Of a stretch of 39,165 nt of DNA, positions 2,873-38,232 are shown one piece after another (within the stretch, counting starts at the first letter, position 1; every line of letters starts with the position of its first letter). The notes under the pieces are model-generated. The model made no database searches and was not told the DNA's origin. It saw only the letters and a list, made by a program, of their open reading frames with translations. The DNA is from a virus, in IMG/VR virus record IMGVR_UViG_3300042397_001415, positions 1 through 39,165 of that record; one strand, given 5' to 3'. The translations under genes and the position numbers were made by a program.

Positions 2873-3041
2873 ATTGATCGATTGGGAGCAGTGGGTCCGC
2901 CCTGCTCCGCCTCAATTCTGCCATAATTGCGATCATTATTCTGGCGATGGATATTGCTATGTTTTCCAAATGATCCCGCCAGCCGACTTTGCCAATTCTA
3001 AGGGCGCTTGCCCGAACTGGGAACAGGAGCTACCGTTTTGA
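2850..3041 (+). CDS. Small cysteine-rich protein, putative zinc-binding
   Basis: A 63-aa protein with C-x2-C (FCHNCDHY), then C (GYCYVF) and a last C (GACPNW), a four-Cys pattern suited to one zinc ion. Small phage proteins of this type, with C-x2-C, a short Gly loop, a Cys and a final C-P-x-W, are common but unassigned. It starts inside the helicase 3' end and overlaps the next gene's TTG start (TTGA), so it lies in a tightly coupled unit. The Cys spacing recalls the 65-aa protein encoded at 35206-35403, which may be a distant relative. Confidence 0.7.
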   Translation: MRPSKPPELIDWEQWVRPAPPQFCHNCDHYSGDGYCYVFQMIPPADFANSKGACPNWEQELPF

Positions 3042-3382
3042 CCGACCGCATCCCCACCGAGCATGAAGAACAACGAGAACTGGTCCGCTGGTTCCGCCAG
3101 AAATATAAAGGCATTCGCATCTTTGCGATTCCGAACGGTGGGTATCGGACACGATCCACGGCAGCAAAGTTGAAGGCCGAAGGCGTGATGCGCGGCGTCC
3201 CTGATCTGTTTGTCCCAGCCCATAATCTCTGGATCGAGATGAAGCGGGTCAAGGGCGGGAAGCTATCTCCAGAGCAGCGTGATTGGATTAACTATCTGGA
3301 AATGCTTGGTAATACTGTCTTTGTCTGCCACGGTGCAGACCATGCCAAGGATGCTGTTGACAAGTTTTTTTCTAGTCTATGA
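3038..3382 (+). CDS. VRR-NUC domain nuclease
   Basis: A 114-aa stand-alone VRR-NUC protein, the phage branch of the PD-(D/E)XK superfamily thought to act on branched DNA such as Holliday junctions (the family includes eukaryotic FAN1). Signatures in order: the N-terminal EHEEQRELVRW helix, IPNGGYR, the substrate helix AAKLKAEG, GVPDLF with the metal-binding Asp, IEMK (the E-x-K motif) and a late Q-x-x-W helix. I chose TTG 3038 as start because CAGGAG at 3024-3029 lies 8 nt upstream and the TTGA overlaps the preceding stop. A longer frame reaching TTG 3008 lacks such a site. It is one of two nucleases in this short block. Confidence 0.85.
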   Translation: MTDRIPTEHEEQRELVRWFRQKYKGIRIFAIPNGGYRTRSTAAKLKAEGVMRGVPDLFVPAHNLWIEMKRVKGGKLSPEQRDWINYLEMLGNTVFVCHGADHAKDAVDKFFSSL

Positions 3383-10455: not shown

Positions 10456-13400
10456 TCACGCCCTTAGCCAGCTTCTGTTTGCATCCTCTGCATGAGTGCC
10501 GCTTCCGGTTTTTGTGAGCAATGCCTGAATTTCGTATCTTTGGGGACCACCACTGCTATTGGTGTAAGTCGCGCTGACAGTCAATGCGCCGCCTTCGCTA
10601 ACGGGGTAAGTGTCGCTGTCCGATGTTCCGAAGTTGCTGTATGTGCCGCCAACTGGCCTGACTTGCAACTGAAGCGTAAAGGTCGAGGACGCTACAGAAC
10701 CCACGTTTATTGTTGATACGGCATTAACATCAATTGATTCGCTGTTAGCCAGAGAGACAACAAAAGACCCGCTGCGAAGAACGTCAAAGCGAACGCCAAC
10801 CGGTGTGATTGCCTCAACTTGAACTGGCGTTGACCAGCTTCCAACTAGCGTGGATGCACCGCTAATTTCTCCACGACTTTCCCACATTGGTTCGCCATTC
10901 GCAGCCGGTCTGCTTTGCGACCAGCCAGCCGGTGTCAGGTTTCCTGTAGGTGTTGCAGGTTGTGTCGCTGACCGGATGTAAATCGGAACAAACTTGTTGC
11001 CGTTAACGCCGTCAGTTCCATCTGTTCCGTCAGTACCAGTCCGAGACTTCGACAGGCTCAGAACCTTTTGGATGGTAACGCCGCTGTAGACCGCTTGGAA
11101 AGTGGCCGAGGCTGTATCAGCAGACATGGCGCTGACTGAATAGATGCCGGTGCTGCCACCAATGGACACCGTGCAGTTGCTCGACGATGCCACGGTGAAT
11201 GCCGAACTGGTGGTAACGTCCGTCGTACCCTGAAAGACCTTGAACGTGCCATTCGCAGGCGTGAAGCTTGCCACCACACCAGAACTGTCTGCGGAAAGCG
11301 TGACGGCCTCATTGGTGAGTAGGCCAGTTATGGCATCTGTACCGTCAGCACCGTCCGTACCATCAGTCCCATCCGCACCCGGCAAGCCCTGCACAGCCGC
11401 CTGAAGGATCGCCACCTTTTCGTGGGCATCGTCAAAGCGAGTGTTGGCGGTTGCGCCGGTCCACGGTGTATCTTGGGTAGTGTCGGTCCAAGACGGCGTC
11501 AGTCCCGAAAGGAAGCTGTTGAGAGAATTGATGGCGCTGGTTGCGTTGGTGCGCTCTGTGGAGGCCACACCAAGAGCAGCAGCCTTTGCGTCAAGTGCTG
11601 TGTAATTCGAGATCAGCGCATCATAGACAACTTTAAGGGTTGGCTTCTCTGCGGCAGAGAGCCAGTTGTCGGAGGAGATAATATCGATCTCTGCTTGAGC
11701 CGCTGCGACATCTGCCAAGGCCTGAGCAATGCCCAAGTCACGCACCAATACCCAAGCCGAACCAGACCAGCGATAAAGCTTATTGTTATCGTCTGTGTCG
11801 ATCCAAAGATCGCCAACGGCCTCTGCGGTCGGTGCTGTAGTCCCGACAAAGGTGGTTACCTTGCCATCAGCCGTAGCTTGAGCATCAGAAGCGGCAGCGA
11901 TAGCCGTCGAGATCGCGTCATCCTGAACCTCGATAAAGGTCGTGCCATTGTGGCGATACAACTTGTTCCCGTCATCAGTGTCGATCCACAGGTCGCCCGA
12001 TGAAGCGCCAGAAGGCATTGACGATTGATAAAAGCTTTCAATTTTACCGTCAGCGGACGCCTGAGCATTCGCCGCATCAGTCAGTGCCTGAGCGATTCCA
12101 GCGTCACGCGCTAAAACCCATGCGCTGCCCGACCATCTATACAGCTTATTGCTGTCATCAGTGTCGAACCAAAGGTCTCCAACGCCCTCTGCTGTCGGCG
12201 CGGAAGTCGTGTAGAATGTAGTGACCTTACCGTCAGCGGTGGCTTGCGCCCCAGCGGCATCAGATATTGCTATCCCGATCCCAGCGTCCTGTACAACGAC
12301 CCAAGCGGAACCGCTCCAACGATATTGCTTGTTACCATCATCCGTATCGAACCATAGGTCGCCAATACCTTCTGCTGTTGGCGCAGAGGCTTGATAGAAT
12401 GTCTGCACTTTTCCGTCAGCAGTGGCCTGTGCGTCATTTGCCAACGCAGCAGCAGCAGCTATGCCAGCGTCACGTACCGAAACCCAAGCCGAGCCACTCC
12501 AGCGATACAGCTTATTGCTGTCATCAGTATCTACCCAGAGATCACCAACGCCCTCTGCGGTAGGGGCAGAAGTCGAAGCAAATGTCGTAACCTTGCCGTC
12601 GGCAGTGGCTTGCGCACCGGCAGCGGCAGTTATAGCTGTTCCGATAGCGGTATCCTGCACGACAACAAAAGTTGTGCCATTGTGCCGATATTGTTTGTTA
12701 CCATCGTCAGTGTCAAACCAAAGGTCGCCAATAGTGCCGGTTGGCATACTGGCTTGATAATAGCTATCAATCTTGCCATCCGCAGTCGCCTGAGCATTAG
12801 CCGCATCATTAAGGGCGGTTGAAATGGAACTGATTTGAGCAGCCGTTGCGCCAATGTTAGCCACATCAACCCACGCCGAACCATTCCATCGTGTCAGGTA
12901 TCCGGTTGATGGCTTGTACCAAAGGTCACCAATCGCCTCTGCTGTAGGTGTGGATTCGACGTAGAATGTGGTCACCTTGCCATCCGCAGTAGCCTGCGCA
13001 TCTGAGGCAGCAACAAGGGCCGCATTAATGCCATCGTCCTGAATCTCTATAAAAGTGATTCCGTTGTGGCGATAAAGTTTATTGCCATCGTCCGTATCGA
13101 TCCACAGATCGCCCTCTGTGCCGGTGGTCGGCATAGTGGCCTGATAGAAGCTCTCTATCTTGCCATCAGCCGTGGCCTGAGCCGAAAGGGCCGCATCAAG
13201 CGCCTGATCAATACCCAGAATAAACGGAGCATTGAGCGGATCGTAAATCGTCGGGGCAGTCGGCGTGACCGGAGCAGAGTCCTCACGATCCCAAGCGTAG
13301 ATTGCAGCATTCTCTTCGACCAATGCCAAAGGCACTTGACCGTCGAAGCGGATTTCCTGACTGATCACGCGGAACGGTTTATTCGACCAGCCAAGAGCCT

Positions 13401-14751
13401 CAATGCTGAGACGCACAACGTCGCCAACCTGACAGCCAAGCGCCTTTGCGTTGAAGGTGGCGCTGAACATGCCGCGATACTGGTTGCGCTGAAGAATTTG
13501 CTTGGCGATCCGCTGCGCTCTCCGACCATCCTCAACATAAGCCAGATCAATAGTGGTGGCGCGTTCAATGCCGTCCGAAGAGGTGAAGCCAACTTCAGGA
13601 TAGTCCACCATCTGATAAAGGCTGGTGTAAGACGGATCGACATAGCGACCACGGGCCACATTATAGTTTTCTGTCAGGCCGCGAGTTTGCTGCCAATCGA
13701 ACTCGCCAAGCATGTCGGCTTCGTCAAGATCAAGCACATATTCGCCAAGATCATTCTTCATGACCGTCAGCGTCAACTTGCCCGAATTGTCGCGAAGCGT
13801 ACCGTTCATGGACATGAGGAAGGTATTGATAATGTCCATGCGGCTGTCGGCGTCTGAAGCCGTGCCCGAAGTGCGATAACGCTTTTGCGTCCCGCCAGTA
13901 GCAAGGATCACACTTTCGTCGCAGATATTGGCCGCAGTGATGAATGAAGCCATGTCGAGTCGGTTGGCTGGTACGCCGCAACCAACAGACAGCTTGCCAT
14001 TAATCTTCCATCCCAGAAGCCACCAGAGAAGCTGGAGAGCCGGATTGTCGCAATCGTCTGCGTCGGTGTAGACGCCCCAAGTGGTCTGATCGTTAGAGCG
14101 ATGGCTTCCAGAGCCGCCAGCAACTGTGCTGTCCTTGCGGGGGTCATAGAGGAGCGCACCATTGCCAATGATCGTCACGCGGCTAGGCAGGCCGTTTACA
14201 AGCGGGCTTTCAGCCTTCTTGGTGTTGCCAGTACGCTTGATCCGAATATGCAAATAAGCGCAGCCGGTGAGCCGACGTGACGAACCCCATTTCGCGCCAC
14301 CATTAATGGCGATAGTATTGCCAGCGGTCCCTTCGGTGCGGGTCGTTACAGTCAGATAGCCGGTATAGGTTGCGGTCACGCCACCAGTGGCAGTCCAAGC
14401 CTGCTTTTCTTCAAACCAAATCTCATCAATCGACGCAACTTTATGAGCCGCGACGGCAATAATATAATCAATAAATTCCTGATCGGTGCCGCTGCTTTCG
14501 TGGTAGCGAAGGTCCAAGTTCATGGCAGTCGTGCCGAAGACTGACTTGCGCGGCGTAATAGGATCAAGGCTGACGTTTAGGCGGGAGAGCTGCGTCTTAG
14601 GCGCTCTTGGCCCGAAGAACTGCTGTGCAACACCAGACAGGACAGTGGTTGCCGCCATAGCGAGCATTGCTGCACCAGCAGCGGTTACGCTAACAAAGCT
14701 ACCCGCAGTGAATGTCGGAACAAGCGAAACGCCGCCAGTTACAATTGCCAA
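10456..14751 (-). CDS. Tail tip / host-specificity protein (gpJ-like) with eight internal repeats
   Basis: A protein of at least 1431 aa. The N-terminal ~510 residues form the tail-hub part (SVFGTTAMNLDLRYHESSGT, TFNAKALGCQVGDVVRLS), expected to cap the tail and contact the distal tail proteins. Residues ~515-1015 are eight copies of a ~61-residue module with A-Q-A-T-A-D-G-K and G-D-L-W-x-D-T-D-D motifs. Then come a helical segment (SAAEKPTLKVVYDAL), two collagen-like Gly-x-Asp tracts (PGADGTDGTDG and GTDGTDGTDGVNG), and Ig-like beta domains to the end. The only ordinary start is TTG 14751, which has no ribosome site. The frame continues upstream to 14799, where AUC-GGU-AAG (I/M-G-K-I-V-K) follows GGGAGG by 5 nt. 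See the findings on HNH insertion. Confidence 0.85.
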   Translation of the reverse strand: MAIVTGGVSLVPTFTAGSFVSVTAAGAAMLAMAATTVLSGVAQQFFGPRAPKTQLSRLNVSLDPITPRKSVFGTTAMNLDLRYHESSGTDQEFIDYIIAVAAHKVASIDEIWFEEKQAWTATGGVTATYTGYLTVTTRTEGTAGNTIAINGGAKWGSSRRLTGCAYLHIRIKRTGNTKKAESPLVNGLPSRVTIIGNGALLYDPRKDSTVAGGSGSHRSNDQTTWGVYTDADDCDNPALQLLWWLLGWKINGKLSVGCGVPANRLDMASFITAANICDESVILATGGTQKRYRTSGTASDADSRMDIINTFLMSMNGTLRDNSGKLTLTVMKNDLGEYVLDLDEADMLGEFDWQQTRGLTENYNVARGRYVDPSYTSLYQMVDYPEVGFTSSDGIERATTIDLAYVEDGRRAQRIAKQILQRNQYRGMFSATFNAKALGCQVGDVVRLSIEALGWSNKPFRVISQEIRFDGQVPLALVEENAAIYAWDREDSAPVTPTAPTIYDPLNAPFILGIDQALDAALSAQATADGKIESFYQATMPTTGTEGDLWIDTDDGNKLYRHNGITFIEIQDDGINAALVAASDAQATADGKVTTFYVESTPTAEAIGDLWYKPSTGYLTRWNGSAWVDVANIGATAAQISSISTALNDAANAQATADGKIDSYYQASMPTGTIGDLWFDTDDGNKQYRHNGTTFVVVQDTAIGTAITAAAGAQATADGKVTTFASTSAPTAEGVGDLWVDTDDSNKLYRWSGSAWVSVRDAGIAAAAALANDAQATADGKVQTFYQASAPTAEGIGDLWFDTDDGNKQYRWSGSAWVVVQDAGIGIAISDAAGAQATADGKVTTFYTTSAPTAEGVGDLWFDTDDSNKLYRWSGSAWVLARDAGIAQALTDAANAQASADGKIESFYQSSMPSGASSGDLWIDTDDGNKLYRHNGTTFIEVQDDAISTAIAAASDAQATADGKVTTFVGTTAPTAEAVGDLWIDTDDNNKLYRWSGSAWVLVRDLGIAQALADVAAAQAEIDIISSDNWLSAAEKPTLKVVYDALISNYTALDAKAAALGVASTERTNATSAINSLNSFLSGLTPSWTDTTQDTPWTGATANTRFDDAHEKVAILQAAVQGLPGADGTDGTDGADGTDAITGLLTNEAVTLSADSSGVVASFTPANGTFKVFQGTTDVTTSSAFTVASSSNCTVSIGGSTGIYSVSAMSADTASATFQAVYSGVTIQKVLSLSKSRTGTDGTDGTDGVNGNKFVPIYIRSATQPATPTGNLTPAGWSQSRPAANGEPMWESRGEISGASTLVGSWSTPVQVEAITPVGVRFDVLRSGSFVVSLANSESIDVNAVSTINVGSVASSTFTLQLQVRPVGGTYSNFGTSDSDTYPVSEGGALTVSATYTNSSGGPQRYEIQALLTKTGSGTHAEDANRSWLRA
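11700..13210 (-). repeat. Eight tandem ~183-bp coding repeats in the tail tip gene
   Basis: On the - strand the region encodes eight successive modules, each starting near A-Q-A-T/S-A-D-G-K-I/V, then P-T-A-E-x-x-G-D-L-W-x-D-T-D-D-x-N-K-x-Y-R, then a W-S-G-S-A-W or H-N-G-T-T-F turn and a V-x-D-x-x-I helix. Two subtypes alternate: the H-N-G type (copies 1, 3, 7) and the W-S-G/W-N-G type (copies 2, 4, 5, 6, 8). The repeats are well conserved as protein but differ at many third positions. Confidence 0.85.
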
Positions 14752-14791
14752 GCCGACAAGGGCTGCGGCAATGGCAACGCTCTTTACAATC

Positions 14792-15352
14792 TTACCGATG
14801 ACAGCCTCCCATAAATTCTTCCGCCGTCTTGCGTCCCTTTTTCATATTACACGAAGGGCAGGCTATAGCCAAATTTTGCTTGTCGTTTCCGCCACCGCGA
14901 GAAAGCGGAACAACATGGTCAACGTGATATTCTTTTACCGGAATTTGGCAATAAGCGCATCTAAAATTTTGTTCCCTGAGAATTTCCTGAATTTCTTCGG
15001 CTGTATGGGTTCCGCTGCAACCATTTATTTTTGCCCTGCGATTTGCTTGATGTAATACATGCCTTTCAGGATGCCTGATCCTCCATTTTTTTTTAGCTTC
15101 CCTTGCCTTTTCTCTGTTTGCTTCTCTCCATTTTGCCGAAAGCAAATTGTGCTTTTTTCTATATTCTTCATCTTTCATTTTTTCGTAATGTAAAATTGAG
15201 GCTCTCTCAGAAAGCCTCTTTTTATTATTTTGATAATATTCTTTGTGGTATGCCTTTTTGCACGGCTTACATGAACTTGAACCTCTGCCAGCCTTCATTT
15301 CAATAGGCAAAACAGATTCACAACGCGGGCATATGAAATTATCATTACCCAC
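14792..15352 (-). CDS. Free-standing HNH endonuclease inserted between tail genes
   Basis: A 186-aa protein with an N-terminal zinc finger (C-P-R-C ... C-K-P-C), a long Lys/Arg/Glu-rich helical linker, and a C-terminal HNH nuclease: C-A-Y-C, D-H-V-V-P-L-S-R-G-G, N-L-A-I-A-C-P-S-C-N with a late N and K-x-G. It is a homing-type endonuclease. I place the start at GTG 15352 because GGAG lies 8 nt upstream; longer frames lie inside the preceding gene. It overlaps the preceding stop by 8 nt. The gene is visibly richer in A+T than both flanks, which suggests recent acquisition. It is bounded by GGTAA at each end and appears to have taken the tail tip gene's original start. Confidence 0.85.
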   Translation of the reverse strand: MGNDNFICPRCESVLPIEMKAGRGSSSCKPCKKAYHKEYYQNNKKRLSERASILHYEKMKDEEYRKKHNLLSAKWREANREKAREAKKKWRIRHPERHVLHQANRRAKINGCSGTHTAEEIQEILREQNFRCAYCQIPVKEYHVDHVVPLSRGGGNDKQNLAIACPSCNMKKGRKTAEEFMGGCHR

Positions 15353-15743
15353 GCTCAACGCTCCAGCACTTATCCCACATTTCGCGGGGAACGCGCTCCA
15401 GCCCATCGTCAGAGACGAAATATGCGAAGCCACCCATTACTACACCAACACTCTGATCGAAGAAAGCAAGATCGCCTCTTTGCGCATGGCCAATAGGTAT
15501 TTCGTCAAACTTGCTGTCGAGGGTAGTTTCAAGATCGCCCTCACCGATCTCCTTCAATGCCTTAATGCTGCCCCGTAGATCGCTGTAGGAGCCTTTGAAC
15601 TCCTGCATGGGGTCAACACCCGTCATGACCTCAACAGCCCCCGCAGCGAACATGCAGCAGTCATTGACGCCATATTGAAAAGGCTCATCGCGCTTGCTGG
15701 CGATATAGTCAGACAAAGCTTCTTCCCAGATCGTTACCCGCAT
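15345..15743 (-). CDS. Tail assembly protein, NlpC/P60-like (DUF6950 type)
   Basis: A 132-aa protein in the place of lambda gpK-type tail peptidases, between the minor tail gene and the tail tip gene. It has F-Q-Y-G-V-N-D-C-C (residues 22-30; the D-C is the usual position of the catalytic Cys), F-A-A-G-A, G-V-D-P, and G-H-A-Q-R-G-D-L-A-F-F with the candidate His. The pattern matches DUF6950, a group of papain-like NlpC/P60 relatives found next to tail tip genes. Peptidase activity is not assured. It overlaps the upstream gene by TAATG. Confidence 0.75.
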   Translation of the reverse strand: MRVTIWEEALSDYIASKRDEPFQYGVNDCCMFAAGAVEVMTGVDPMQEFKGSYSDLRGSIKALKEIGEGDLETTLDSKFDEIPIGHAQRGDLAFFDQSVGVVMGGFAYFVSDDGLERVPREMWDKCWSVERG

Positions 15744-30968: not shown

Positions 30969-31254
30969 TTTCCATGTGGTCTTTTACCACAGCGACATCG
31001 CTCTCGTTCGCCACAACTGGGGCGACCTTGGTGGGGAGCGACAAAAACTTAGCCTTGCAGGCGTGAAGAACTGTCTCCCATGCCTTCACCACATCGTCGG
31101 TCAGGCATAGGGTGCCGCGTATCTTCGCCAGTTCCAGTTCAGCGATCTCGGCCTCGGCTGAAATTTTGCGGGTGCGGGCTTCTTCATATGTTTGGGCGCT
31201 CACCTCTGGCCTTAGCATGGATTCTTCGCCAGCCCTTTTTCTGGTGTTACTCAT
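30793..31254 (-). CDS. terS: Terminase small subunit (Nu1-like)
   Basis: A 153-aa protein with Y-E-E-A-R-T-R-K-I-S-A-E-A-E-I-A-E-L-E-L, then L-C-L-T-D-D-V-V, C-K-A-K-F-L-S-L-P-T-K-V-A-P. This is the pattern of the phage DNA-packaging Nu1 family that recognises the packaging site and loads the large subunit. The last ~45 residues are Ala/Pro-rich and overlap terL. ATG 31254 is preferred to the adjoining TTG; the HNH stop overlaps it. No strong ribosome site is visible. Confidence 0.78.
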   Translation of the reverse strand: MSNTRKRAGEESMLRPEVSAQTYEEARTRKISAEAEIAELELAKIRGTLCLTDDVVKAWETVLHACKAKFLSLPTKVAPVVANESDVAVVKDHMENAIREALLELSNYQPAIDPVNTGSAAVEPIAGDEAPDSPAKNVGGRVGRSRAAARLSK

Positions 31255-32140
31255 CAAAATTTAATCCCATCTTCGCATAAGCTGACCGCATTCTGTCAGC
31301 AGCCTCATCCCTTAGCATCCTAAGCCATTTTGACGGATGATGCGCCGCCTTGCCTGCATTGCAAGACCAACATAACACCATAACATTATCCGCGCTATGT
31401 GTCCCGCCAAGTTTTAATGGTATGATGTGGTCGAGAACCTTATCGTCCCGCTCCATCAATCCATCACAACATGGGCAGACTTTTTCCGCAAATATGCTTT
31501 TCATAAAATCAGTGGTAATCGAGCCATCGGTTCTTTCGTCAATTAATTTCTGCCTTCTAGTGTTTCCGTTCCATTCACCAGAATGAACCTTTGCGGATCG
31601 GCAAGGTCGGCAAGTTTTCTGCCTTCCGTCCTTTGAGACATTATTTGGAGAAAAATCGCTAAACGGCTTGCGCAGATCGCAAGATGAACAAACCTTGCTC
31701 TGAGCCTTAATGTCGCTTTGTACCTCCGCGTGTGATCGTGCCCTGATTGAGCAACAATATTTCAAAATCTTGTTGGAATTATTTTCCTTGGGCCACTCGG
31801 ATCGAGGCTTTGTTTCACCGCATTTCTCACATTTGATTAACTCTGATTGACGCGCTGCCATTCTCTCCACCTTTCTCCTTGCCGCTTCAGCAGCTAGAAT
31901 TGGTCTTCTGACTGCCGCACACTCTTTATTAATATGGCCTAGACACTCCCGACAATTGCTGAGTGGGATTCCATTCTTATGGGGGAAAGAGTTAACTTCC
32001 TTATTTTGCTTGCATCTAGTGCAAAGCCATAAAGCGCCGTCAAATCTGCGTTCAATCGCGTTTTTGCGCAATTTTTCACCGTTGAACTGGCGGTTATCGA
32101 TTGTGCCGTCTTTTTTCAAAAGCATGGCTTTTTCTAACAT
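31247..32140 (-). CDS. HNH endonuclease with three N-terminal zinc fingers, next to terS
   Basis: A 297-aa protein. Three Cys-rich fingers occur in order (C-T-R-C ... C-R-E-C; C-E-K-C ... C-C; C-S-S-C ... C-R-P-C), then a C-terminal HNH (C-P-C-C, L-D-H-I-I-P-L-K-L-G-G-T, N-V-M-V-L-C-W-S-C-N-A-G-K). It may be a free-standing homing nuclease, or an HNH that helps the terminase cut DNA as in some cos phages; the zinc fingers and A+T-rich codons favour a mobile origin. ATG 32140 has no clear ribosome site; ATG 32125 (M6) is an alternative. The stop overlaps terS. Confidence 0.8.
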   Translation of the reverse strand: MLEKAMLLKKDGTIDNRQFNGEKLRKNAIERRFDGALWLCTRCKQNKEVNSFPHKNGIPLSNCRECLGHINKECAAVRRPILAAEAARRKVERMAARQSELIKCEKCGETKPRSEWPKENNSNKILKYCCSIRARSHAEVQSDIKAQSKVCSSCDLRKPFSDFSPNNVSKDGRQKTCRPCRSAKVHSGEWNGNTRRQKLIDERTDGSITTDFMKSIFAEKVCPCCDGLMERDDKVLDHIIPLKLGGTHSADNVMVLCWSCNAGKAAHHPSKWLRMLRDEAADRMRSAYAKMGLNFDE

Positions 32141-34198: not shown

Positions 34199-34291
34199 CC
34201 CCCATACGATTCACGACGAAAAATTTTGCCCCCCATACGATTTATGGAGCAAAATTTTAGCCCCTATACGATTTATGGGCCAATTTTCTGC
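34199..34291. repeat. Three 31-bp direct repeats
   Basis: The word ATACGATT occurs at 34204, 34235 and 34266, exactly 31 nt apart. Each is preceded by a C-run (CCCC/CCCCT) and followed by TATGGrsCAAAATTTT-type sequence (the first copy is more diverged). The third copy overlaps the stop codon of the 66-aa gene. Iteron-like; no spacers, so not CRISPR. Confidence 0.75.
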
Positions 34292-35841: not shown

Positions 35842-37891
35842 ATTTGCCTCCTCCTTCATTTTTAACCATCATCCAAATACCGCTATAAGGCTCTCCGATG
35901 ATCCTCCAGCCATGTTCGAACGGCTCGATAATATTAGCGGTCAGCATAGGCAGGATCAGCCCGTCCTTTCTGGATGAGTCCAGCTTGTTACGGATGGTGG
36001 TTTCTTTCCAGTCAGCATTGCCCGCGAGAAAGTCTTTGAAGCCCGATCTGGATAGATAGGGATGCCCATCGCGCACCTCCTGTCCAGTCATGTCCCAAGC
36101 CCTTCGCATTAGCCTGAGGTTCTCATCATGTTTACTAGGCTTCTTTCTAGGCTGTTCTGCGGCAGCCTCCTTATCCTCGACGGCAACGCATGTCGTGGCT
36201 GGTTTACCAAACTTGGTCTGGCCCATCTCGACCGTTTCCAGCTTGAAATAAATTATGTCGCCCTTGGAAGGCAATTCTCTCTGCTTTGTGACCTCGGCAG
36301 ACCTTATGCCTCCTTTTTCCGAAATCTCGATTTCAGTATCAATATGCGCCCTGATCCCAGACCAGCCGCGAGCGCCCTTGGCAGCATCTTTACCATTGTG
36401 GTGAATAATGATCATTGTAGCGCCTGTAGCGAGGCTTACATGCTCAAACCTAGCCATGACAGGCCCCATGTCCTCGCCGCTATTCTCATTGGCCCCAGCG
36501 GACATTCTGGCGAGGGTATCGCCTATGACGGCCCCGCACTTTTTGCCCCGCTCTCGCTCGATCTCCTTGATAGCCTCAATTACGTCGAACGAGTCGCCCT
36601 CATTGGAGTAGAAGTTTAACGGTACTGGCACGACGGCCACATTTTCGAGAACAACGCCATAATATGCCTTGATGGCTTGCAGGCGCGTCTTGATGCTGCC
36701 GGGGGCCTCACAAGCCAGATAAACCACAAGACCTTCCTCGACCTGTCTGCCGCAGAATGGCTGGCCCGTGGCAATTGATGCCGCCAATGACAATGCCCAG
36801 AAGGTTTTGCCTGAGTTGGAGTCACCATAGATCACTGCTGTCGATCCAGCCACAAGCAGGCCCTCTACCAATTCATCTGGTGGCTCATAATCTTGCCCAA
36901 GTTCGTTACCGAAGACGATCTTTAGCTTCTTGACGATCTCTTGGCCGCTAGGTGGCTCAAGCAAGATTTTGAGATTACCACCCTCTGCCAGATAGTCATT
37001 GGCATCGCCTAGGGACGGCGGCATCACCACCCTTGCACCATATTTGGCCGAAGCCTGATCGGCATATTTCTGGCCGGTCCCAGAGGCATCATTATCAGCC
37101 ACAATGACAATGTCCTGCGAAGCACCATATTTCTCTCGGATCGTGCCGGTGACTGGGACAAGGTTCGAAGCCGAGTAGGCCACGATACATGGCCGGTTGG
37201 TCACCTCATTGATCGTCGCGGCAGTGGCGAAACCCTCGGCCACAAAGATCGTGCCAGCCTCATCGAGCGTCCCGACCATCCAAAAGCATCCGCCGGTCTG
37301 TCCGCCGGAATGATAAAGCTTGCCCCCTTCAGCATCAATATACTGAAGCGAGGCCAGTTTACCGTCCGGTGTGTAAAGAGGGAGCATCAAGCGACCGTCG
37401 CCGGTCATTCTGGCACCGTGGAGGCCGATACCCTTGCGAGCCAGATAGGGATGCTCCGGCGTTGCCAACATGCCATCTGACCATATCTTTTCGACGGTGT
37501 CCGAAGCCATGTCACGGGTGCGCTTGAGATCGGCGTCCCTGATGGTCCGTGCCTCGGCCAATCGACGGGCATTCACCATCTTTTCGCTGTCGGTCAGGGT
37601 CCGCCCTATGTCGGCACAGAAGGTAACTTCGACCCCAGCCCGCCAGCAGCCAAATCGACCAGACGGGATGCCGTCCGAGAAAACCACATACCAACCCGGC
37701 TTATCGTGACCGGCCTTACCTTTCGTGCCGGAATTAAAGCGATGCAGCTTCCCATCGAACAAAATTTCGTTTGGCGGTGACAGACCAGCCGACAGCATTG
37801 CATCCCTTAGCTGGGTCTCTGGCGAATCGGGTTTAATCTCTTTGGGAGGCGACCACGGCCCCCCGAAGATATTTGATAGGTTTCCGCTCAT
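35834..37891 (-). CDS. Primase-helicase (Toprim + RepA-like AAA ATPase)
   Basis: A 685-aa replication protein. The N-terminal part (residues ~1-135) resembles the zinc-less primase region of phage/plasmid primases; a Toprim domain follows with E219 in V-F-V-A-E-G and A-D-N-D (265-268). The second half is a RecA-like hexameric helicase of the RepA/AAA_25 type: Walker A G-D-S-N-S-G-K-T (356-363), Walker B V-I-G-D (455-458), H497-H498 in I-I-I-H-H-N-G. The C-terminal ~100 residues look like a winged-helix domain. It should prime and unwind at the phage origin. It starts at an ATGA overlap with the DnaA-like gene. Confidence 0.85.
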   Translation of the reverse strand: MSGNLSNIFGGPWSPPKEIKPDSPETQLRDAMLSAGLSPPNEILFDGKLHRFNSGTKGKAGHDKPGWYVVFSDGIPSGRFGCWRAGVEVTFCADIGRTLTDSEKMVNARRLAEARTIRDADLKRTRDMASDTVEKIWSDGMLATPEHPYLARKGIGLHGARMTGDGRLMLPLYTPDGKLASLQYIDAEGGKLYHSGGQTGGCFWMVGTLDEAGTIFVAEGFATAATINEVTNRPCIVAYSASNLVPVTGTIREKYGASQDIVIVADNDASGTGQKYADQASAKYGARVVMPPSLGDANDYLAEGGNLKILLEPPSGQEIVKKLKIVFGNELGQDYEPPDELVEGLLVAGSTAVIYGDSNSGKTFWALSLAASIATGQPFCGRQVEEGLVVYLACEAPGSIKTRLQAIKAYYGVVLENVAVVPVPLNFYSNEGDSFDVIEAIKEIERERGKKCGAVIGDTLARMSAGANENSGEDMGPVMARFEHVSLATGATMIIIHHNGKDAAKGARGWSGIRAHIDTEIEISEKGGIRSAEVTKQRELPSKGDIIYFKLETVEMGQTKFGKPATTCVAVEDKEAAAEQPRKKPSKHDENLRLMRRAWDMTGQEVRDGHPYLSRSGFKDFLAGNADWKETTIRNKLDSSRKDGLILPMLTANIIEPFEHGWRIIGEPYSGIWMMVKNEGGGKYD

Positions 37892-38232
37892 CTACTTGCT
37901 CTCTCTATGATTTTAGAAATTGCATCAATTTGCCCGACTAACTTTTTGTCTTTTCTAAGCAAATCATCGATAACTGCACAGCCGTGCATAACTGTCGTAT
38001 GATCGGTGCGTTCCAAGCTGTAAGCAATCCGCTGATACGACAGGTGCTGGCAGTGCCGACGCATCATATAGTAAGCCGTGTGTCTTGCTATACAAAGTTT
38101 TTTAGCACGGCTGGGAGATTTCAAATCCTCCACCGATACTGCCATGATTTTGCTCACGGCGTTAATTACCAATGGCGCAGACGCACGTTTTGGTTTCCGC
38201 TTTTGCGGAGGCTCATACCATGTTGGGAACAT
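37888..38232 (-). CDS. DnaA domain IV (DNA-binding domain) protein
   Basis: A 114-aa protein equal to the C-terminal DNA-binding domain of DnaA: I-N-A-V-S-K-I-M-A-V-S-V-E-D-L-K-S-P-S-R, then A-R-H-T-A-Y-Y-M-M-R, L-S-Y-Q-R-I-A-Y-S-L, and the signature D-H-T-T-V-M-H-G (residues 77-84), close to D-H-T-T-V-L-H-A of DnaA. No AAA+ domain is present. It should bind DnaA boxes, either to mark the phage origin or to compete with host DnaA. It lies upstream of, and coupled to, the primase-helicase. Also annotated in phages as DnaA-like or chromosomal replication initiator domain protein. Confidence 0.85.
   Translation of the reverse strand: MFPTWYEPPQKRKPKRASAPLVINAVSKIMAVSVEDLKSPSRAKKLCIARHTAYYMMRRHCQHLSYQRIAYSLERTDHTTVMHGCAVIDDLLRKDKKLVGQIDAISKIIERASR

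Follow-up and report, generated by a model that had tools for sequence, protein, structure and literature searches.

An HNH gene inserted behind the start codon of a phage tail tip gene, with a predicted AUC start for the displaced reading frame

The window analysed here is 39,165 bases long (IMG/VR virus record IMGVR_UViG_3300042397_001415). It carries a gene for an HNH protein of 186 residues placed precisely at the start of the gene for the tail tip protein. The evidence makes it probable that a homing-type HNH gene inserted between the GTG and GGT codons of the tail tip gene and captured its start, leaving the tail tip protein to begin at an AUC codon supplied by the HNH gene itself. A preliminary description, made from the letters of the window, had proposed that the HNH gene took over the original start codon and ribosome site. 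Its base-level statements on the junction, checked on the window sequence, are all correct, so that the observation is confirmed; the interpretation is supported by empty-site relatives and by a second occupied locus.

The junction and the HNH protein

The features of the junction all lie on the minus strand. Gene A (15345..15743), which encodes a DUF6950/phrog_2134 tail-associated protein (Pfam PF22262, E 3.9e-40), ends TGGAG-CGTTGAGC-GTG-GGTAA. This 3' end holds a ribosome site, GGAG (15364-15361), as well as the GTG with which the tail tip gene ancestrally began, in overlap with the gene A stop (GTGGGTAA). Junction alignments identify the GTG at 15350..15352 as the tail tip start in relatives with an empty site; here it is the start of the HNH gene (14792..15352), and the GGTAA that follows it (15345..15349) contains the gene A stop. 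The HNH gene ends GGGAGG-CTGTC-ATC-GGTAAG, running in frame into the tail tip sequence G-K-I-V-K. Within its final codons, GGGAGG (14805..14810) forms a replacement Shine-Dalgarno sequence 5 nt ahead of ATC (14797..14799), where the tail tip protein of this phage is proposed to start. The downstream copy of GGTAA (14792..14796) provides both the opening bases of the tail tip gene and the HNH stop, TAA at 14794-14792, as had been stated earlier. A distance of 553 nt separates the two GGTAA copies. In the tail tip frame no ATG, GTG or TTG occurs between the upstream TGA and the ATC; the earliest standard start within the gene, and the sole one nearby, is an internal TTG (14749..14751), which has no ribosome site.

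The HNH protein has CxxC pairs in its N-terminal part and an HNH domain at its C-terminus. It matches PF01844 over positions 1–46 of 47 (52.5 bits, cut-off 21.4; E 5.4e-14) and phrog_1035 (E 5.2e-32), and the motif DH...N..L...C..CN is intact. Matches among solved structures, to the HNH domains of Cas9/IscB-like proteins and to the small HNH endonuclease 4h9d, are confined to the HNH core. The composition of the gene is foreign and A+T-rich: its guanine plus cytosine content (GC) is 40%, with 35% at third codon positions (GC3), against 53–55% and about 59%, respectively, in the flanking genes. No Rfam family was found in the window at the gathering score, neither an intron nor any other RNA. 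Moreover, the 553-bp insert is coding throughout and its open reading frame (ORF) ends at the junction, so that the gene does not lie within an intron or intein; a group I intron with an HNH ORF, already discounted in the preliminary description, is thereby rejected. A part in anti-phage defence, as PtuB of the Septu system, was likewise rejected: the matches are weak (E 8e-8 at best) and limited to the HNH core, and the neighbours are tail genes, with no PtuA ATPase partner. The best reading is that this is a free-standing HNH gene of the homing type, with a predicted endonuclease activity.

Empty, occupied and scarred sites in relatives

Relatives were sought with the tail tip protein (at least 80 loci) and with gene A (53 loci), and the junctions of 168 loci (designated L), with 74 distinct gene-A sequences, were surveyed. 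A scan of the viral collection gave at most 80 loci (in one case 80 of 566 relatives), so that occupied sites may be under-counted. Almost all loci lack an insert, and in them the end of gene A directly overlaps the start of the tail tip gene (gap -4). The site is empty in about 70 of the 74 distinct gene-A sequences, the exceptions being only the occupied and scarred loci, and the exact GTGGGTAA junction is present in 52. The codon preceding Gly-Lys is GTG in 58 of the 74 sequences, ATG in nine and TTG in two; by inspection, two further ones, L174 and L076, have ATG and GTG at this place. L004 and L020, in which gene A is 99% identical to that of the window, read CGTG followed by GGTAAGATTGCAAAG. 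Excision on paper of one GGTAA and the sequence between the copies had been claimed to restore GTG GGT AAG, and this junction, GTG joined directly to GGTAAG, is found in L004, L020, L082 and L083. L004 and L020 depart from the predicted sequence at a single base, in codon 5. The preliminary description was to be refuted by phages lacking the HNH gene with a tail tip start unlike GTG-GGT-AAG, and it passed this test. A 5-bp repeat on its own is weak evidence, but the empty site that it predicts occurs in real relatives.

Other loci show further variation at this boundary. In L085, which has no insert and a gene A 85% identical to that of the window, the tail tip start is TTG (TTTGGGTAAAG); the start codon at the junction therefore varies in nature. 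A contig from the genome of Sphingomonas montana (L148) carries ATG-GGTAAAG at the junction, which suggests that the hosts are sphingomonads. L038, L126 and L235 (contig 3300047548_000023) have a different small insertion between gene A and the tail tip gene, GTGGGTAACGCTGTGGGCATATTCGCAAGCTGGAGGTTAAATTGGGC, which creates a GGAGG together with a TTG start codon. A second element active at this hot spot may have left it behind as a scar; no intact element was found to which the scar in L038 and L126 could be tied. The spacer of about 340 bp at this boundary in L139, a human faecal phage (MT835603.1, reverse complement, 2908-3250), was considered as an HNH copy and is not an HNH gene; it contains a possible reverse-strand ORF of 92 residues. 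The spacers of other distant relatives are short and are not HNH either.

A second occupied site was identified in L086 (contig 3300035670_000589, also fetched as L136 and L141). Gene A and the tail tip protein of this locus are 78% and 81% identical to those of the window, and its HNH gene, 58% identical, lies at exactly the same point. It starts at the ATG of GTCTAATG, a position taken in other relatives by the tail tip ATG or GTG, and its end reads ATAGGAGG-CTACC-ATC-GGTAAG. The two inserts are thus alike in occupying the displaced start codon, in ending within the GGTAA of the tail gene and in carrying (G/A)GGAGG, 5 nt and AUC within their last codons. The HNH motif is conserved in L086, and the composition of the two HNH genes is similar (GC 40–41%, GC3 35–39%). 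Contigs of phages with empty sites are present in the same metagenome (prefix 3300035670). The flanking GGTAA repeat of the preliminary description stands for the window and does not extend to L086, whose 5' junction lacks it. Target-site duplication of the kind made by transposons was looked at, and a 5-bp duplication is not established, because the repeat occurs in the window alone. Scans with the window protein, with a two-row alignment and with the L086 protein revealed no further copy at this site, and elsewhere only distant HNH genes; the better matches, in phages and plasmids, span mostly the HNH domain and lie at other genome places. A DNA pattern of the 3' junction matched only L086, L084 and two unrelated sequences.

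L084, which shares its contig with L002 and L138, is about 97% identical to the window; its gene A is 98% identical to that of the window, and the body of the HNH gene is gone. The junction reads GTGGGTAGCCAAAAAATAATAGGAGGCTGTCATCGGTAAG. A 31-bp scar retains AGGAGGCTGTC-ATC-GGTAAG, with no base changed in the replacement ribosome site, the AUC or the junction. The claim that the last HNH codons carry a new ribosome site is therefore borne out by the same site and AUC in both L086 and L084. If translation of the tail tip gene begins at the AUC, this 3' end should indeed persist after loss of the gene.

Initiation of the tail tip protein

These junctions strongly suggest that translation of the tail tip gene really begins at the AUC. 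A strong Shine-Dalgarno sequence is correctly spaced from the AUC in the window, L086 and L084, and the N-terminal sequence GKxxK is preserved in all, including the occupied and scarred phages. In L084 and L086 an in-frame TAG stands just upstream of the ATC (TAG GAG GCT GTC/ACC ATC GGT), and for this reason no ATG, GTG or TTG is possible at the normal tail tip start. The predicted RNA fold around the AUC is not stronger than that of shuffled sequences, and we therefore invoke no special RNA structure.

An alternative in which the insertion removed the first 15 codons and the tail tip protein now starts at TTG 14751, leaving the AUC unused, seems to us improbable. TTG is a standard bacterial start and this is the first in the frame, but no ribosome site precedes it. 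In L086, furthermore, the equivalent codon is CTT and the first TTG comes only at codon 26. The conserved GKxxK segment is in frame in occupied and scarred phages alike, and the AUC is well placed behind the Shine-Dalgarno sequence in all three. We regard as very unlikely a second alternative, namely that ribosomes shift by +1 from the HNH frame near CAT-CGG-TAA, aided by the Shine-Dalgarno sequence as in prfB, to make an HNH-tail fusion. The 5-nt spacing to ATC suits initiation better than frameshifting, the distance from the Shine-Dalgarno sequence to the stop exceeds that at the prfB site, and re-pairing from CGG to GGT would be poor. The tail frame is indeed +1 to the HNH frame, an internal GGAGG lies ahead of the stop, and the scar has a 12-codon ORF in the HNH frame closing at the same TAA; a shift in the scar, however, would yield a 12-residue leader of no clear use.

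The arrangement with AUC initiation can be pictured as follows. In the ancestral state the gene A stop overlapped the tail tip start in GTGGGTAA. After insertion the same sequence would link gene A to the HNH gene, and ATCGGTAA would link the HNH gene to the tail tip gene. The HNH gene would be translated from the former GTG of the tail gene using the ribosome site that the 3' part of gene A contains, and would stop at the TAA inside the tail gene's own GGTAAG, while its last codons would furnish the Shine-Dalgarno sequence and AUC for the tail tip protein. The HNH 3' end would in this way copy the role of the gene A end, a ribosome site and a start overlapping its own stop. Ribosomes terminating at the overlapping TAA (ATCGGTAA) could re-initiate at the AUC, which would help a weak start; the tail tip protein is needed in only a few copies per virion.

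The HNH 3' end also appears to be constrained as DNA. At residues conserved between the window and L086 proteins, identical codons are used at 7 of 7 sites in the last ten positions and at 56 of 95 elsewhere, which suggests selection beyond the amino acid sequence. The cassette may be a selfish one that captures a start codon: it would displace the start of a virion gene, hide that gene's only ribosome site and AUC in its own last codons and so hamper its own clean loss, with the tail tip protein naturally initiated at AUC. We lean towards this fuller account, if with some reserve. Were it true, deletion of the HNH body would have to leave a scar with the Shine-Dalgarno sequence and AUC.

Gain, loss and comparison with known insertions

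In a protein tree of gene A and the tail tip core, the window, the empty L082 and L020, the scarred L084 and the occupied L086 form one clade with a support of 0.964, of which L086 is the outermost member. Since these loci group together, gain or loss took place within the clade. The simplest history would have the HNH gene present in the clade ancestor and partially deleted in L084, together with either clean replacement in L004, L020 and L082 or recent regain in the window. Mobility would arise if the HNH protein cleaved the DNA of empty-site phages and repair copied the insert. Upstream of the junction, the window and L004 differ at three positions in the last 400 bp. Directly downstream of the insert, comparison with L004 reveals a differing flank of about 170 bp (14626..14796, minus strand), a possible co-conversion tract, beyond which identity to L020 returns to 95% over the next 1.2 kb. 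This block exists in a window/L084 version and an L004/L020 version, and the split starts at the junction. The presence of the insert is linked to the swapped flank, as would be expected either for co-conversion during homing or for the reverse event, in which an empty phage recombines with an occupied one. Encoded in the same interval is a hydrophobic stretch at the N-terminus of the tail tip protein that differs greatly among close relatives, with modular exchange over residues 12–60 or so.

These observations bear on two further alternatives. The HNH gene might be a fixed, non-mobile passenger lying at the gene boundary by chance, for instance an HNH with a role in packaging or a relic that no longer moves; just two occupied loci are present in the collections searched, and HNH proteins can serve packaging in phages. 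We nevertheless think this unlikely, given that its presence varies in a clade in which gene A is 97–99% identical, that its composition is foreign, that it entered exactly between the start codon and the second codon, that L084 has a deletion scar and that the downstream flank is swapped along with it. The other alternative would reverse the order of events, with a 31-bp insertion as in L084 creating the AUC state and the HNH gene entering later. The window and L084 do have identical last bases and flank, but the tree places L086 outside the window/L084 group, and in L086 an HNH coding sequence already runs through this 3' end, and deletion of the HNH body is a simpler path; there is very little to recommend scar before gene.

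Several points weigh against the proposal that the HNH gene inserted at, and captured, the tail tip start. AUC is normally a very weak start codon in bacteria. The empty state of L004 and L020 could be a secondary loss and not primitive, GGTAA is absent from the 5' junction of L086, and the codon comparison stands on seven codons. Only two loci are occupied and only one is scarred, and the sequences of all three are metagenome assemblies.

The tail module that received the insert runs, on the minus strand, tape measure, distal tail protein, tail protein, gene A, HNH gene and tail tip or J-like protein, and the phage is siphovirus-like. The gene for the tail tip or central tail fibre protein (10456..14799, minus strand; PF13550, E 1.9e-7; phrog_5616, E 1.1e-78; phrog_31) has 1447 codons and a stop when counted from the ATC. 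Between 10456 and 13100 (minus strand) it encodes about seven imperfect repeats of GDLW(I/F/V)DTDD(G/S/N)NK(L/Q)YR followed by AQATADGK. A second HNH gene, endonuclease VII-like (31247-32140, minus strand; phrog_1035, 297 residues), lies upstream of the terminase large subunit gene, and its product is just 28% identical over the core to the HNH protein at the tail tip. Adjoining a primase/helicase gene is a gene for a protein of 114 residues (37888-38232, minus strand) that has the C-terminal DNA-binding domain of bacterial DnaA (PF08299) and possibly binds the phage origin. A 31-bp unit, CCCCCATACGATTTATGGAGAAAAATTTTAC, is repeated in tandem (2.6 copies) at 34199-34278 and is possibly regulatory or origin-like.

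Free-standing endonuclease genes of T4-like phages (segG, segA, segE, mobB and mobC) lie between conserved genes, outside introns and inteins, and use upstream expression signals; promoters for the downstream gene are found inside them, as in segG for gene 32, and disfavour loss (PMC2988022). With its embedded promoters, segG is the closest precedent for the insertion described here, which shares the intergenic entry, the use of upstream signals and the placing of the downstream gene's signals within the endonuclease coding region. It differs in that these signals are a ribosome site and a non-standard start and in that the original start was taken over; cleavage, moreover, has been shown for several of the T4 enzymes and is predicted for the window HNH protein. 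Splicing-free HNH endonuclease inserts also occur within coding sequence, namely mobE in nrdA of Aeromonas phage Aeh1 and mobA in T4 gene 60 (PMC2988022). These split a protein into two polypeptides, whereas the window HNH gene cuts off the first codon only and replaces it. The hidden HNH insertion of the ShiLan domain in mycobacteriophage methylases is another mobile insert without splicing (PMC11855218). The window gene resembles it in this respect and in having a GTG start and a TAA stop at the end of the insert; ShiLan, in contrast, is read through in the frame of the host gene as an extra loop, whereas here the HNH gene is a separate cistron after which the host gene would restart at AUC. 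For none of mobE, mobA and ShiLan is replacement of a start codon described. The bacterial gene infC, for IF3, has an AUU start in place of AUG, GUG or UUG, which serves autoregulation. Unlike that of infC, the non-standard start in the window would be a by-product of the insertion of a mobile gene in a phage tail gene. A literature search, with subscription journals mostly outside its reach, gave no precedent for an HNH gene that provides a replacement start codon.

The states before and after insertion, and the scar, are all found in nature for a putatively mobile endonuclease gene. The arrangement also suggests that a tail gene makes natural use of an AUC start. Standard gene callers overlook such a start, and would place that of the tail tip 16 codons late or call the HNH gene from an upstream GTG. 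As interpreted here, it shows how a mobile endonuclease gene may insert into an operon with little room to spare and leave the phage viable: the stop/start overlap is rebuilt at each end, and the host gene would be made dependent on the HNH gene for its translation.
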